The notes under the pieces are model-generated. The model was not told where the DNA came from and did not search any database. It was given only the letters and a program-made list of their open reading frames with translations. Shown here one piece after another: positions 1 to 56,874 of a stretch of 64,000 nt of DNA. The translations under genes were made by a program, and so were the position numbers. Where the stretch lies: contig OZ014422.1 of assembly GCA_963965975.1 (NCBI GenBank), forward strand, positions 6,799,701 through 6,863,700, read 5' to 3'. The DNA comes from Xestospongia bergquistia (taxonomy: Eukaryota > Porifera > Demospongiae > Haplosclerida > Petrosiidae). Every line of letters starts with the position of its first letter. Positions within the stretch are counted from its first letter, which is position 1.

Positions 1-3000
1 TGCTGAATTACAAGGATATGTTCACAGCTTCTGTTATATATGTAATTGTCTAGATTATTAAAAGTACTGAGACGTCCTGTGATACCATCAACTGTGCAGG
101 TTCTTGTTGGTGGAGCAACATCCTTGATTATAACATTGGTTGTATCTGGACTACCCATCATAGGTTGTGTAGGGTCTGCAGAATTTGGTGTTGTAGACGA
201 GACGGAGATTATTCTGACATTGAAGTTTTCATCACCTTCATTCAGTGTGTCTGGTAAAGTGGTGTAGTTTACACAGATTGGTCCTTGGGATCCTGGTGGA
301 ATGATTAGTGTCTTCTCTCCACCAGTATAGTCAAAGCCAGCTAGAAAAGATTATATTCATTCCTGTATTCATCAAATAATTTGGGCATGCAAATATACAA
401 TAATATACTTAAGAAATATCAGACACAATTTACTGCTTCTTACTTGTTGCTGTACCATCATCAGTCCTAAGTCTGACTATGATATTACGTACTGACATCT
501 TGTTAACTTGGATACATATTTCTACCATATCTCCTTCAGTGACATCTTTAGTTGAATCAACCATAGTCACAATTGGATCTAGGAGAAAAAATAAATACAA
601 TTATTGGTAAATCAAGATAAGATCACTACGTACTGTCATCATCTTGAACAGTTACTGGCAGCGTACTCCTTCCAGGTGTTACCATAATGGTTGAAGGATT
701 TGGAGTAACCAGTGTAGCAGTTATAGTGACAGTCTCATCATCCTCTAATGCTATAATATCATCTTGAATGACAGCAGTGCAAGTTACAACAGCATCTGAT
801 GCAGTAGATGCAGGGACGTTCAGAATTCCAGAGGCATCTTGGCCACAGTCCAGGTCAAGCAAAGAACGTACAATGTTTGATGGAAGGATTCTCTCTATAA
901 TATAATAATAAATATAATATAAACAGTAAGTGTTGATCAATGCTACTAGGACTGTTAAGTCTCACTATTTTATACTTACTCATTGTCATGTTATATGAAG
1001 TTGGCTTAGCAGTTCGAGAGACAACAAAATTAAAAGTACCATTTCCTCTATTTTCAATAAATGTTCTGAATGAATCCACAAAACCATATACCAATGCTGA
1101 AAATAGTATAATAGTAATAGCATCAATTAAATAAATATAATATAACATACGGTCATCATCTTTGATGATAATTTTGGTTCTATCACCCACTATTACTCTT
1201 GTTGATGGATTAGGATTTTGCAAATATAAAAAATACTCTTCGTCATCTTCAAGAGACACTGAATCATCAGAGATATTGAAAGTCACTGTTGTCATAAGAG
1301 AGCCACCAGCTGTGAAAGCAGCAGTACTACTGACGTCAGAACCTGATATGACAACTGTCATAGGTTGAGTACCAGGTCCTTTATTAATATGTGATCAAAT
1401 GTAACTAGTATAATATTGACTTTACCTCCAGTAACTTGGATAGTAAAATCTTGTAAAATCTCTTTGTCAATTTTAACCATCACACTACCCATGGATACGT
1501 TCTCATAGAACACATACTCTGATTGACCAAACATCACATTCAAATCTGCAAAGAGAAAAATTATTTTCCTTCCATCCTTTACTCCAACTTACAATCATCA
1601 TCAAATATGTTTACAGTCATAGGACCACCTAAGTTGACATTCTGAGATGGCATTGAACCATTCAAATAAAGCTGGTATGTCTCTGTAACTTCCAAAGCTT
1701 TCATGTCATCATTAAGAGAAAAAGTAAAGGAAGACTTGTTGGATCCATCAGCTACAAAAGTGACATATTGGTCAACATCTGTTCCAGAAAACTCCACAAA
1801 TTGCTGAGATCGATTTGGTCCTAAAGAACGACCAATACTTAAATGCCGTTAACAATACTATTTCTGTACAAACCTCCTCTAACTCTGACAGAAACATTCC
1901 TCTTAATATCATAATCAATCGTCAGTTGTACTGTTACAGAAGTTTCATTCTCAAAAACATTTATTACAGAGTCTACAAACATCACAGTTACACCTAGAGA
2001 AAAAACAGTGTGCACTGCAAGAACATTATATGTAGTAATATACCATCAGGATCAGTGATTGTTGCTATTTCATTACTTCCAAGTATGACACCATTGGTAT
2101 AACTTGAATTAATAAAGGATAGTTCCACATTTTCAACATTTTCAAATGCAACAGTATCATCTTTAATAGGAAAAGTAAAGAGCTGTGTTGTGTTACCCTG
2201 ACTTGGGAATGTCACAGAAGTAGTATAGGATGATCCTGATTGTTCCACCAATGGATCAGGTTGAGGAGCTAAAGGAGATAACAATAGATGCACTTTGTAT
2301 CAATTATTGATTATACTCACTTGATCTAATGTTCACTTGTAAATCTCGAATTATTGGAGTATTAATCCTTACTGCTATTTGTTCTGTAGTTTGTGCCTCA
2401 TAAAAATGATTGCCAGGACTAAATGTCACAATGACAGCTAGTTTGTAAAAAAAGATTAATAGTATAATAGTAATAGCATCAATTAAATAAATATAATATA
2501 ACATACGGTCATCATCTTTGATGATAATTTTGGTTTTATCACCCACTATTACTCTTGTTGATGGATTAGGATTTTGCAAATTTAAAAAATACTCTTCATC
2601 ATCTTCAAGAGACACTGAATCATCAGAGATAATGAAAGTCACTGTTGTCATAAGAGAGCCACCAGCTGTGAAAGCAGCAGTACTACTGACGTTGGAACCT
2701 GATATGACAACTGTCATAGGTTGAGTACCAGGTCCTTTATTAATATATGATCAAATGTAACTAGTATAATATTGACTTTACCTCCAGTAACTTGGATAGT
2801 AAAATCTTGTAAAATCTCTTTGTCAATTTTAACCATCACACTACCCATGGATACGTTCTCATAGAACACATACTCTGATTGACCAAACATCACATTCAAA
2901 TCTGCAAAGACAACAATAATTTCCTTCCATCCTTTACTCCAACTTACAATCATCATCAAATATGTTTACAGTCATAGGACCACCTAAGTTGACATTCTGA

Positions 3001-56200: not shown

Positions 56201-56874
56201 CCGCCTTTTACGTAATTACTTACTACAAGAAATGGATTTTCAGTTGAATATGTAATATCATCCTGTGCTATGTTACTACAAGCAACTACAGCTATAATGC
56301 TGTTAAAGCTTCGTGCTGATGCTGATAGACTAGCATAACCATATGTAAAATTCGATTTATACTGTATTATTGGAACAGCTAGAAAGCCATCAGCGGAACC
56401 AAAAGAATCGCTAAATCCCATCACTTGAATCGTTTGACTTGAGTTAATTGTTTCCACAATTATACCAACTGAAGTTGTTGCCGTATTCACTTCTGGTACA
56501 TTTGGTGTCATATATTGTTCCCTTATAATTGTTCCAGCTGTGACTGTACCAGTTCTTGAATAGGCAGTATTATCAGATCGAATTCGGTAACCAACTGGAT
56601 TTGGGTTTTGAGTTGTTATAAAGATTCCTAGACTTCTAGGAGCTTCTCTGCCAGTGTTAGGTTCTGTGTTTGCTTTGTTTCTAATGAAGGCAAAACAAAA
56701 AAAGTTTCCTTCATGTGAGACATCCATTGGGATACCTACAAGAATGAGTCGTTAAATGTCAATAATAGCAATAATAATACCTCTGGTTCTTTTGTCGATG
56801 TCCACAGTAGCATTGCAGAGACATAACAGTAATAATACGGTCAAAAGAACAAGGATTAATGCAATACGAATCAT
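43156..56874 (-). CDS. AF-like gene 5: IgGFc-binding domain, about 19 Calx-beta, two VWA, VWD, Wreath-type C-terminus
   Basis: The ATG at 56872-56874 opens MIRIALILVLLTVLLLLCLC, a signal peptide. The IgGFc-binding exon is 55335-56735. Calx-beta modules follow in the order 12 modules (to about 49478), VWA (49420-48846), 3 modules, VWA (47398-46820), 4 modules, then a VWD exon (44282-44863) and the Wreath-type region (about 44234 to the stop at 43156-43158, tail FDKSKC). Both VWA domains keep the MIDAS: LVLDVSESL, a central G-K-T, and LVTDGEPNP. Internal duplications (437 bp in four copies, and 2.02 kb in two copies) explain much of its length. It is the fullest domain set in the cluster and mirrors gene 4 across the tail-to-tail junction. 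The predicted role is secreted calcium-dependent adhesion and recognition. Exon edges inside the array are approximate. Confidence 0.86.
44282..44863 (-). other. VWD domain of AF-like gene 5
   Basis: One exon with YNFHGICEHILAKPC at its start and ELCGLCGNTNGTLVSSDG and RRECG towards its end. It is bounded by phase-1 introns as in gene 4. Confidence 0.8.
46330..49700 (-). repeat. 2.02-kb duplication carrying a VWA exon with flanking Calx-beta exons
   Basis: Equivalent points are 46302/48322, 46591/48617, 47116/49142 and 47367/49393, an offset of 2020-2026 bases. The copied segment contains a VWA exon, the adjoining Calx-beta halves and their introns. Protein identity between the two VWA domains is very high, with scattered changes such as LNSTEARQI versus LSSTEANQI. 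Confidence 0.88.
46820..49420 (-). other. Two VWA domains of AF-like gene 5
   Basis: The domains lie at about 48846-49420 (first in the protein) and 46820-47398 (second), separated by three Calx-beta modules. Both read MLVLDVSESL, MIRFSD, RGGKTYHL and VTDGEPNP, so the D-x-S-x-S, Thr and Asp of the MIDAS are all present. They differ from the gene 2 VWA type in lacking T-N-T. Confidence 0.82.
49714..49838. repeat. (GA)n microsatellite in an intron of AF-like gene 5
   Basis: About 125 bp of almost pure GA repeats with three GGG interruptions. It lies in the intron between the N-half (about 49889) and C-half (to about 49665) of one Calx-beta module. The reading as a Glu-Arg protein on the plus strand is an artefact. 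Confidence 0.95.
52961..54708 (-). repeat. Four tandem 437-bp Calx-beta units in AF-like gene 5
   Basis: The string catttaccatcaacatctga starts at 52961, 53398, 53835 and 54272, an exact 437-bp period. Units 2 and 3 differ at only a handful of bases including introns. A further, older relative of the unit lies at about 52515-52960 (445 bp). Confidence 0.95.
55050..55070 (-). other. 21-nt microexon of AF-like gene 5
   Basis: Between the N-half exon ending at about 55152 and the C-half exon starting at about 54925, the minus strand has CAG | 21 nt | GTCAGT at 55050-55070. It reads MGQNAAT in frame with phase-1 junctions on both sides, and supplies the short linker (usually G/S-x-A-T/L-G) that other N-half exons encode themselves. 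Confidence 0.65.
55335..56735 (-). other. IgGFc-binding-type N-terminal domain of AF-like gene 5
   Basis: One exon of about 467 codons. Landmarks are IGFMTGHECGEI, CDHIVEQIPPSYTWGYNF, ERPLAVMQYGFSH, VLIAPISQYLNQHVF and HYISVTVLARYFD. Its last 95 codons are over 90 percent identical in DNA to those of AF-like gene 4, while the first part is much more diverged. Confidence 0.8.

Follow-up and report, generated by a model that had tools for sequence, protein, structure and literature searches.

Sponge aggregation factors (AFs) are classic cell-recognition molecules, made as one precursor that yields two polypeptides. In the literature that we reached, the identity of their cell-surface partner is not settled. 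The closest described locus is that of Amphimedon queenslandica, in which Grice et al. in 2017 reportedly described a cluster of five similar AF genes with Calx-beta domains, von Willebrand domains and a shared domain. Calx-beta domains, which bind calcium in known cases, are also abundant in ADGRV1, a human adhesion G protein-coupled receptor (GPCR) with GPS and 7tm_2 domains. Two further proteins enter the comparison, namely the ITIH heavy chains, which carry an Asp-Pro-His-Phe site and are coupled in vertebrates to the glycan hyaluronan, and the mucus protein FCGBP, which is not known to have Calx-beta arrays or an ITIH-type C-terminus. Here we analyze a 64,000-nucleotide stretch of Xestospongia bergquistia DNA (the window; C12:6799701-6863700 of a 146.5-Mb, 21-contig genome), which holds five intact multi-exon genes, G1 to G5, over ~58 kb. 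The original prediction, made from the letters of this stretch, was that five separate genes form an AF-like cluster and share Calx-beta, VWA and VWD domains and a C-terminal region; Pfam searches and intact gene models both agree with it. G4 lies on the plus strand and the other four on the minus strand. The cluster is probably the same as, or orthologous to, the Amphimedon AF locus and hence already known. The additions made here are the IgGFc_binding start of G4 and G5 and, as the two strongest, a relation of the common C-terminus to ITIH and N-terminal arms that also occur in receptor-containing clusters.

At the level of sequence, the chimeric make-up of these genes, the sharing of their arms and the copying of their modules are established. 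Going further, we lean towards the view that the AFs are chimeras in which receptor-type arms are mounted upon a fixed secreted anchor, which would nominate the receptors with the same arms as AF partners. The five genes are as follows (positions without a contig name are those of the window):

G1: 12459 to -1377, minus strand, 53 exons, 3394 amino acids (aa), running ~1.4 kb beyond the left window edge
G2: 20138-12627, minus strand, 20 exons (one 15-bp exon is doubtful), 2068 aa
G3: 32074-20993, minus strand, 44 exons, 2843 aa
G4: 33978-42927, plus strand, 27 exons, 2204 aa
G5: 56874-43156, minus strand, 45 exons, 3590 aa

Every model runs from ATG to stop with no internal stop, all introns are GT-AG and the median intron length by gene is 48-51 bp. 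The models were predicted from the DNA by a splice-site and coding-score search and were then curated by hand: predicted introns within open exons were merged (the IgGFc exons and C-terminal exon A, in G4 and G5), two read-through introns were split in G1, the last exon of G3 was restored, and two short exons were removed from G4 and a 21-bp exon from G5. Signal peptides were assigned by reading alone. The models of a self-training gene finder were over-spliced at this locus and were discarded.

N-terminal arms shared with other gene clusters

The IgGFc exon of G5 (466 aa) is only 45% identical to that of the adjacent G4, whereas ten full-length, stop-free relatives with 77-90% identity lie in a plus-strand array at C5:1.773-1.861 Mb. 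A gene at C5:1858501-1878500 (L051/L052) tracks the exon order of G5 well beyond this domain, mostly at 78-89% DNA identity. It has about ten Calx-beta exon pairs, with fewer 437-bp modules than G5, lacks the first-VWA block of G5 and diverges from it just before the second VWA exon. Its Pfam matches begin with IgGFc_binding (E 3e-36) and Calx-beta, continue with Ig, Ig, EGF, Ig and a weak HRM, and end in GPS (E 3e-15) and 7tm_2 (E 2e-10 and 2e-6); by this predicted domain content, it is an adhesion GPCR carrying the G5 arm. The notion that the G5 arm is merely a common IgGFc domain was rejected, since the match covers both the head and the Calx-beta exons. The arm features of G5 and G3 are:

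47380..56818, minus strand: N-terminal arm of G5, its IgGFc and Calx-beta exons ordered as those of the adhesion GPCR gene
55050..55070, minus strand: 21-bp exon omitted from the final G5 model, with a similar exon at the same place in two C5 genes
31185..32192, minus strand: 5' end of G3, matched at five places within C5:2.600-2.721 Mb with 82-88% DNA identity, of which one (L054) was read

The 21-bp exon is probably real and of phase 1, and it would bring G5 to 46 exons.

A second member of the C5 array, L053, has a G5-type head, two Calx-beta exon pairs, Ig and FN3 matches (three FN3, two below the cut-off), a hydrophobic stretch and a Tyr-containing tail; by reading, it is an apparent single-pass protein. 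The IgGFc exon of L051 is 90% identical to that of G5 and 79-91% identical to those of nine other full-length array neighbors, while synonymous divergence (dS) is 0.188 for G5-L051, 0.259 for G5-L053 and 0.113 for L051-L053. Since G5 falls within the diversity of the array by pairwise distance, which was used here instead of a tree, these values suggest that the AF gene took its arm from the C5 array.

An extra G5 Calx-beta and VWA unit stands behind the adhesion GPCR gene (L052:7894-8865, C5:1876394-1877365; VWA E 2.5e-23), and 73-75% DNA matches to the VWA part of G5 at C3:6347862-6376924 and C3:6882586-6883539 mark another VWA gene family. The protein matches at C2:10.41 Mb belong to G5 and L051. 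In L053, the predicted tail (L053:8996-9571) has recurring Tyr motifs that are possible phosphorylation sites.

G5 is accompanied in this sharing by two other genes of the cluster. Our DNA searches covered most of the locus in three pieces, outside of 1-199, 20191-20949, 40941-43099 and the part beyond the window. The N-terminal parts of G1, G3 and G5 recur in tandem clusters on other contigs at ~69-90% DNA identity, and each of the three genes matches its own separate cluster. The G5 matches lie at C5:1.77-1.88 Mb (77-90%) and those of G3 at the places listed above, while window positions 3840-12462, ~62% of G1, match C2:7.285-7.570 Mb (69-83%). The G3 relative L054 (C5:2.711 Mb) has a G3-like head with 67% aa identity over the first exons and, ~3 kb past the head, EGF and Ig matches, a weak HRM match and a GPS (E 2.5e-13), after which the piece stops short of any 7TM; we infer that head and receptor part form one gene. 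Of the 29 AF-like 5' copies, 8 are followed by a GPS match that lies no more than 20 kb downstream and ahead of the next copy; these comprise 1 of 12 G5-like, 4 of 5 G3-like and 3 of 12 G1-like copies, in a GPS search that scored 150 of 166 candidates.

Domains and the common C-terminal region

Calx-beta arrays had been predicted for all five genes, and they are indeed present in each. The Pfam family matched 24 of 84 and 25 of 68 window open reading frames (ORFs) of at least 70 aa, and 21 of its 59 genome-wide matches lie within the window. An intron in mid-domain splits each Calx-beta into one exon pair, and the exon pairs of the final models number 24, 5, 20, 11 and 19 in G1 to G5, respectively. 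G4 was the one gene for which the spliced repeat region was also examined with Pfam, yielding 11 stretches (E 6e-119). VWA and VWD, which were likewise expected in all five genes, also had Pfam matches, but with a narrower distribution. VWA occurs solely in G2 (six exons, E 7e-28 to 3e-40) and G5 (two exons, E 7e-26 and 4e-26). VWD exceeds the Pfam cut-off in G4 (E 1e-7) and G5 (E 9e-5), falls below it in G3 (E 0.0016) and in G1 (E 0.023, where an unrelated family scored better at 0.012), and was absent from the Pfam scan of G2. IgGFc_binding begins G4 (E 4e-31) and G5 (E 5e-37), while the short Cys-rich heads of G1-G3 had no Pfam match at E<=10. None of GPS, 7tm_2, VIT, C8 or TIL was among the families matched by the 84 + 68 window ORFs. 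The genes are laid out as follows:

G1, minus strand: signal exon, Cys-rich module, 24 Calx-beta exon pairs, VWD-like exon; C-terminal exons A and B are outside of the window
-418 to 340 (window part 1..340), minus strand: G1 exon that completes the last Calx-beta and holds the VWD (E 0.023)
G2, minus strand: Cys-rich module, five Calx-beta, six VWA, C-terminal exons A (13110-13607) and B (12627-12952)
G3, minus strand: signal exon, Cys-rich module, 20 Calx-beta, C-terminal exons A (21363-21929) and B (20993-21312)
21979-22719, minus strand: G3 VWD, joined to the last Calx-beta exon
12194-12367 (G1), 19958-20138 (G2) and 31810-31980 (G3), minus strand: Cys-rich N-terminal modules
G4, plus strand: signal exon, IgGFc_binding exon (34110-35456), 11 Calx-beta, VWD (41368-41946), C-terminal exons A (41994-42485) and B (42590-42927)
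41994..42485, plus strand: the same G4 exon A, candidate Wreath domain with a predicted VWD fold and GDPLF near its start
G5, minus strand: signal exon, IgGFc_binding exon (55335-56735), 19 Calx-beta
48847-49419 and 46821-47393, minus strand: G5 VWA
44282-44863, minus strand: G5 VWD, followed by C-terminal exons A (43725-44234) and B (43156-43511)

The C-terminal region, consisting of exons A and B, is common to all five genes, and those of G1, G2, G3 and G5 are 34-46% identical to that of G4. PF06668 (ITI_HC_C) matches it in each gene with E values of 4e-4 to 0.13, all below the Pfam cut-off, and hhalign aligned the anchor with the ITIH C-terminus, represented by hand-typed ITIH1-3 sequences, at a probability of 97.3 (E 2e-11, 230 columns; controls 0.15 and 0.27). 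From these profile matches, the AF C-terminus is taken as homologous to that of the ITIH heavy chains, an assignment that we consider well supported. In the unspliced genome, PF06668 matched nothing, including G1-G5 themselves, and thus an exon-wise search is too weak for this family. Exon A is predicted to have a VWD beta-sandwich fold. Near its start, Asp-Pro is invariant in all five genes, while the position of the His in GDPH is occupied by Leu or Met in all five. By position, the shared C-terminus is a candidate Wreath domain; no Wreath model was among its Pfam matches. Among solved structures, its profile found nothing relevant (the best match being a Chk1 fragment at E 0.23), and an AF2 model of exon B alone was poor (pLDDT 48.5) and was not used. 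VIT-domain exons, which resemble ITIH fronts, occur elsewhere in the genome at C15:4647979 and C15:3614115-3634089.

In the genome, the anchor was found at this locus and in one decayed copy on contig C8. A search with the G4 C-terminus gave 16 matches at E<=1, ten of them in the cluster (two exons in each of five genes) and six at one place on C8, and so the gene count of five is right within the reach of that search. A larger cluster was rejected, because the flanks are apparently unrelated and the C-terminal exons were found only here and on C8. The C8 copy (C8:1222970-1228086; L028, L029) is an 86-93% copy of the tail-to-tail ends of G5 and G4 (window 45785-40917) and is flanked on both sides by ORFs that read as Ig/FN3-like. 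In its G5-like part the frames are mostly open, with an apparent transposase insert in one intron, and its G4-like part has stops.

Copied modules, intron phase and surroundings

The locus contains five repeat arrays, two in G1, one in G3 and two in G5. Recent internal copying of modules, as originally proposed, is evident from neighboring units that are 79-99.7% alike in their exons. The arrays and one tract of gene conversion are:

5751..9070, minus strand: G1 tandem array of seven Calx-beta modules (an exon pair each), 451-564 bp apart, neighbors 79-95% alike in exons
1102..3822, minus strand: G1 tandem duplication of a 1.36-kb six-exon unit, exons 97.0% and introns 95.4% alike
22966..27132, minus strand: G3 unit of six exons and three domains in three copies, spacing 1624, 1296 and 1294 bp
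52523..54666, minus strand: G5, five Calx-beta modules of ~437 bp
46357..49663, minus strand: G5, two copies of a 1.29-kb stretch with VWA at a distance of 2.03 kb, exons 89.9% and introns 91.7% alike
35183..35470, plus strand: gene-conversion tract over the final 96 codons of the IgGFc exon in G4, dS to G5 of 0.149 versus 1.53 over the rest of the exon

Among the middle three modules of G5, neighbors are 99.4% and 99.7% alike in exons and the 46-bp intron within the module is 100% identical. In the compared parts of G3, whose first unit copy carries an insert in one intron, exons are 97.0-98.4% and introns 96.4-99.1% alike. Introns are thus often as similar as exons (99.1% versus 98.4% in G3), which is expected from recent copying of DNA. 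Intron identity does drop below that of the exons in the last G5 module pair (58.7% versus 83.0%) and in the first G1 pair (81.8% versus 93.5%), and the dS of 0.2-0.3 in three of six comparisons within the G1 array indicates that some modules are not young. The comparison concerns one haplotype, and copy-number variation in the population is outside of its reach.

Phase-1 symmetry is a mark of shuffled extracellular modules, and its extent in G1-G5 stands out: the hand-corrected models have 183 phase-1 introns out of 184, and the uncorrected ones had 185 out of 189. The sole exception in the final models is a 49-bp phase-0 intron (4972-5020) in a Calx-beta second-half exon of G1, perhaps a gained intron. 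Since almost all introns are phase 1, nearly every exon is movable, and the reading frame is kept when an arm is linked to an anchor. Together with the near-identical modules, this phase rule explains how an arm can grow or shrink while its gene stays intact. By the same method, the first 24 introns of the C5 receptor gene, from the arm to the second Ig, are all phase 1, while the next 11 include three of phase 1, five of phase 0 and three of phase 2. For L053, the count is 15 of 23, with the first 11 all phase 1. Both models were trained on the AF genes themselves and are rough in their last parts, and that of the receptor gene skips the GPS exon and most of the 7TM and has an uncertain start codon.

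The flanks on both sides of the cluster hold ORFs apparently unrelated to G1-G5. The left flank resembles transporter genes by reading. In the right flank, Pfam matched desaturase and PAP2 among three ORFs (57647-58720, 58841-59944 and 60548-61744), two of which are 87% alike with the third between them; by elimination from the tally, the two alike are probably the fatty-acid desaturase matches and the middle one PAP2. Within the genes, the palindrome TGAGCATGCTCA is repeated in two long introns, of G3 (26115-26275) and of G4 (38453-38600), and may represent a small mobile element. One intron of G5 holds a 125-bp run of the AG dinucleotide (49714-49838), a likely length-variable marker.

Meaning of the shared arms and comparison with known systems

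In the arrangement that we favor, an exchangeable N-terminal arm, composed of a Cys-rich or IgGFc_binding head and a Calx-beta array, with VWA in two genes, would be carried by a fixed C-terminal anchor, predicted to be secreted and composed of VWD in four of the five genes and then a VWD-fold domain of ITIH type. The anchor would assemble or tether the secreted protein in the matrix, possibly in a manner suggested by the ITIH link, which offers a concrete idea of how an AF might be assembled or tied to glycan. The Calx-beta arm would be the specific, recognizing part. Because the same arm occurs in secreted factor and receptor genes, these receptors can be named as the first candidate cell-surface partners, presumably through like-with-like contact of arms, and arm exchange between secreted and receptor genes would keep both sides matched. 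If so, the search for a partner comes down to testing named genes directly for binding. A bolder and rather doubtful extension is that AFs and adhesion GPCR-type receptors of this sponge are matched recognition sets, each factor bearing the arm of its own receptor cluster elsewhere in the genome, with calcium-dependent, like-with-like Calx-beta contact and with phase-1 cassette exchange creating new matched specificities. Were it true, allorecognition would work through a ligand and a receptor that are both built from one shared, copy-number-variable module.

Several observations weigh against such pairing. No GPS or 7tm_2 was seen in the scanned pieces of L053, and with GPS downstream of only 1 of 12 G5-like and 3 of 12 G1-like copies, many copies are probably not adhesion GPCRs. 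The GPS matches are themselves clustered, and a uniform expectation (~0.01 per copy, 20 kb) therefore overstates the case. In L054, the ~3 kb between head and receptor part lacks recognizable arm exons, the link of G1 to C2 consists of match positions only, and gene conversion, which is present in the locus, can distort nesting by distance. In the DNA-level search, G2 had no match elsewhere and G4 had only its converted tract, which limits the pairing to three of five genes. Some of these points bear upon another explanation, which we take seriously though we would stop short of calling it probable, that the sharing of arms resulted from exon shuffling in a genome with many IgGFc/Calx-beta genes. 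The AF genes would then have acquired arms from whichever tandem array supplied them, with no functional pairing to receptors. IgGFc_binding has undergone a large expansion, with at least 132 exon matches in many clusters, mostly tandem and mainly on C1, C2, C7, C13 and C15, and so shared heads could be due to shuffling without pairing. Phase-1 introns ease such joins, and 21 of the 29 AF-like copies have no nearby GPS match. Against this explanation, the sharing of G5 is long, extending over the head and some ten Calx-beta exon pairs whose order is the same, and each of three AF genes has its matches in a separate cluster.

We consider it quite unlikely that the arms are instead a general particle- or microbe-binding module, as in FCGBP, with secreted and receptor versions binding the same third ligand and a role in innate defense or particle capture, not in self recognition. 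IgGFc_binding is by name the family of FCGBP, and would fit such a role, but an IgGFc head is found in only two of the five AF genes. A Halichondria receptor figure legend also lists IgGFc-binding and Calx-beta among other domains (PMC8242945). Far less probable still is that misassembly or wrong gene models joined receptor and AF exons through collapsed repeats. Although the locus is full of near-identical repeats and the models are sequence-based, the divergence between AF and C5 copies, ~10-20% of DNA positions across kilobases, is too great for collapsed repeats, and all five AF frames are open with canonical splice sites.

As for the anchor, it might work like the VWD of ITIH or mucins, with the Asp-Pro cleaving to free a C-terminal piece and to leave an Asp end that can be coupled to glycan. 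This reading, which could explain how two AF polypeptides arise from one precursor, seems unlikely to us. The Asp-Pro is invariant in the five genes at the point where the profile alignment begins and where ITIH3, 5 and 6 carry GDPH (PMC10880436). However, the His is Leu or Met in all five, changing the GDPH His of FCGBP to Asn inhibited cleavage (PMC10880436), and the motif sits in the low-confidence start of the structure model.

None of the papers listed in our literature searches, which did not reach Grice et al. 2017, the main AF paper, contains the term "wreath domain", and no listed title or abstract opening ties AFs to ITIH or to adhesion GPCRs. The sharing of G1, G3 and G5 N-terminal parts with other clusters and the near-universal phase-1 introns of AF genes were likewise absent from what these searches listed, as was any relevant paper on Microciona MAFp3/MAFp4. 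Part of the present findings may already be in print. In its main text, an Amphimedon GPCR paper has neither "calx" nor "igg" (PMC4302439), while a study of Amphimedon after grafting reports no statistically significant enrichment of genes for AF-mediated adhesion (PMC5450542).

With respect to known systems, the likeness to adhesion GPCRs lies in the L051/L052 gene, which has the G5 arm and ends in GPS and 7tm_2, and in L054, which has the G3 head with GPS 3 kb on; the AF genes differ in ending with the anchor, GPS and 7tm_2 not having been found in them. FCGBP resembles the AF genes in the IgGFc_binding head of G4 and G5 and in its VWD-fold domains, but the window ORFs have no C8 or TIL matches. 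The ITIH heavy chains have a related C-terminal domain by profile-profile comparison and a VWD-like fold, the relation including the Asp-Pro start and an I-[DE]-G-x-Y-x-D-Y-like end outside of the Pfam model, whereas the AF genes have a GDPL/GDPM-type motif in place of DPHF and carry Calx-beta arrays, and VIT was not found in them. Finally, the Amphimedon AF cluster, as reportedly described, is alike in its five similar clustered genes with Calx-beta domains, von Willebrand domains and a shared domain, and in the Xestospongia locus we found arm sharing with receptor-containing clusters, the ITIH relation, near-universal phase-1 introns and IgGFc_binding heads.

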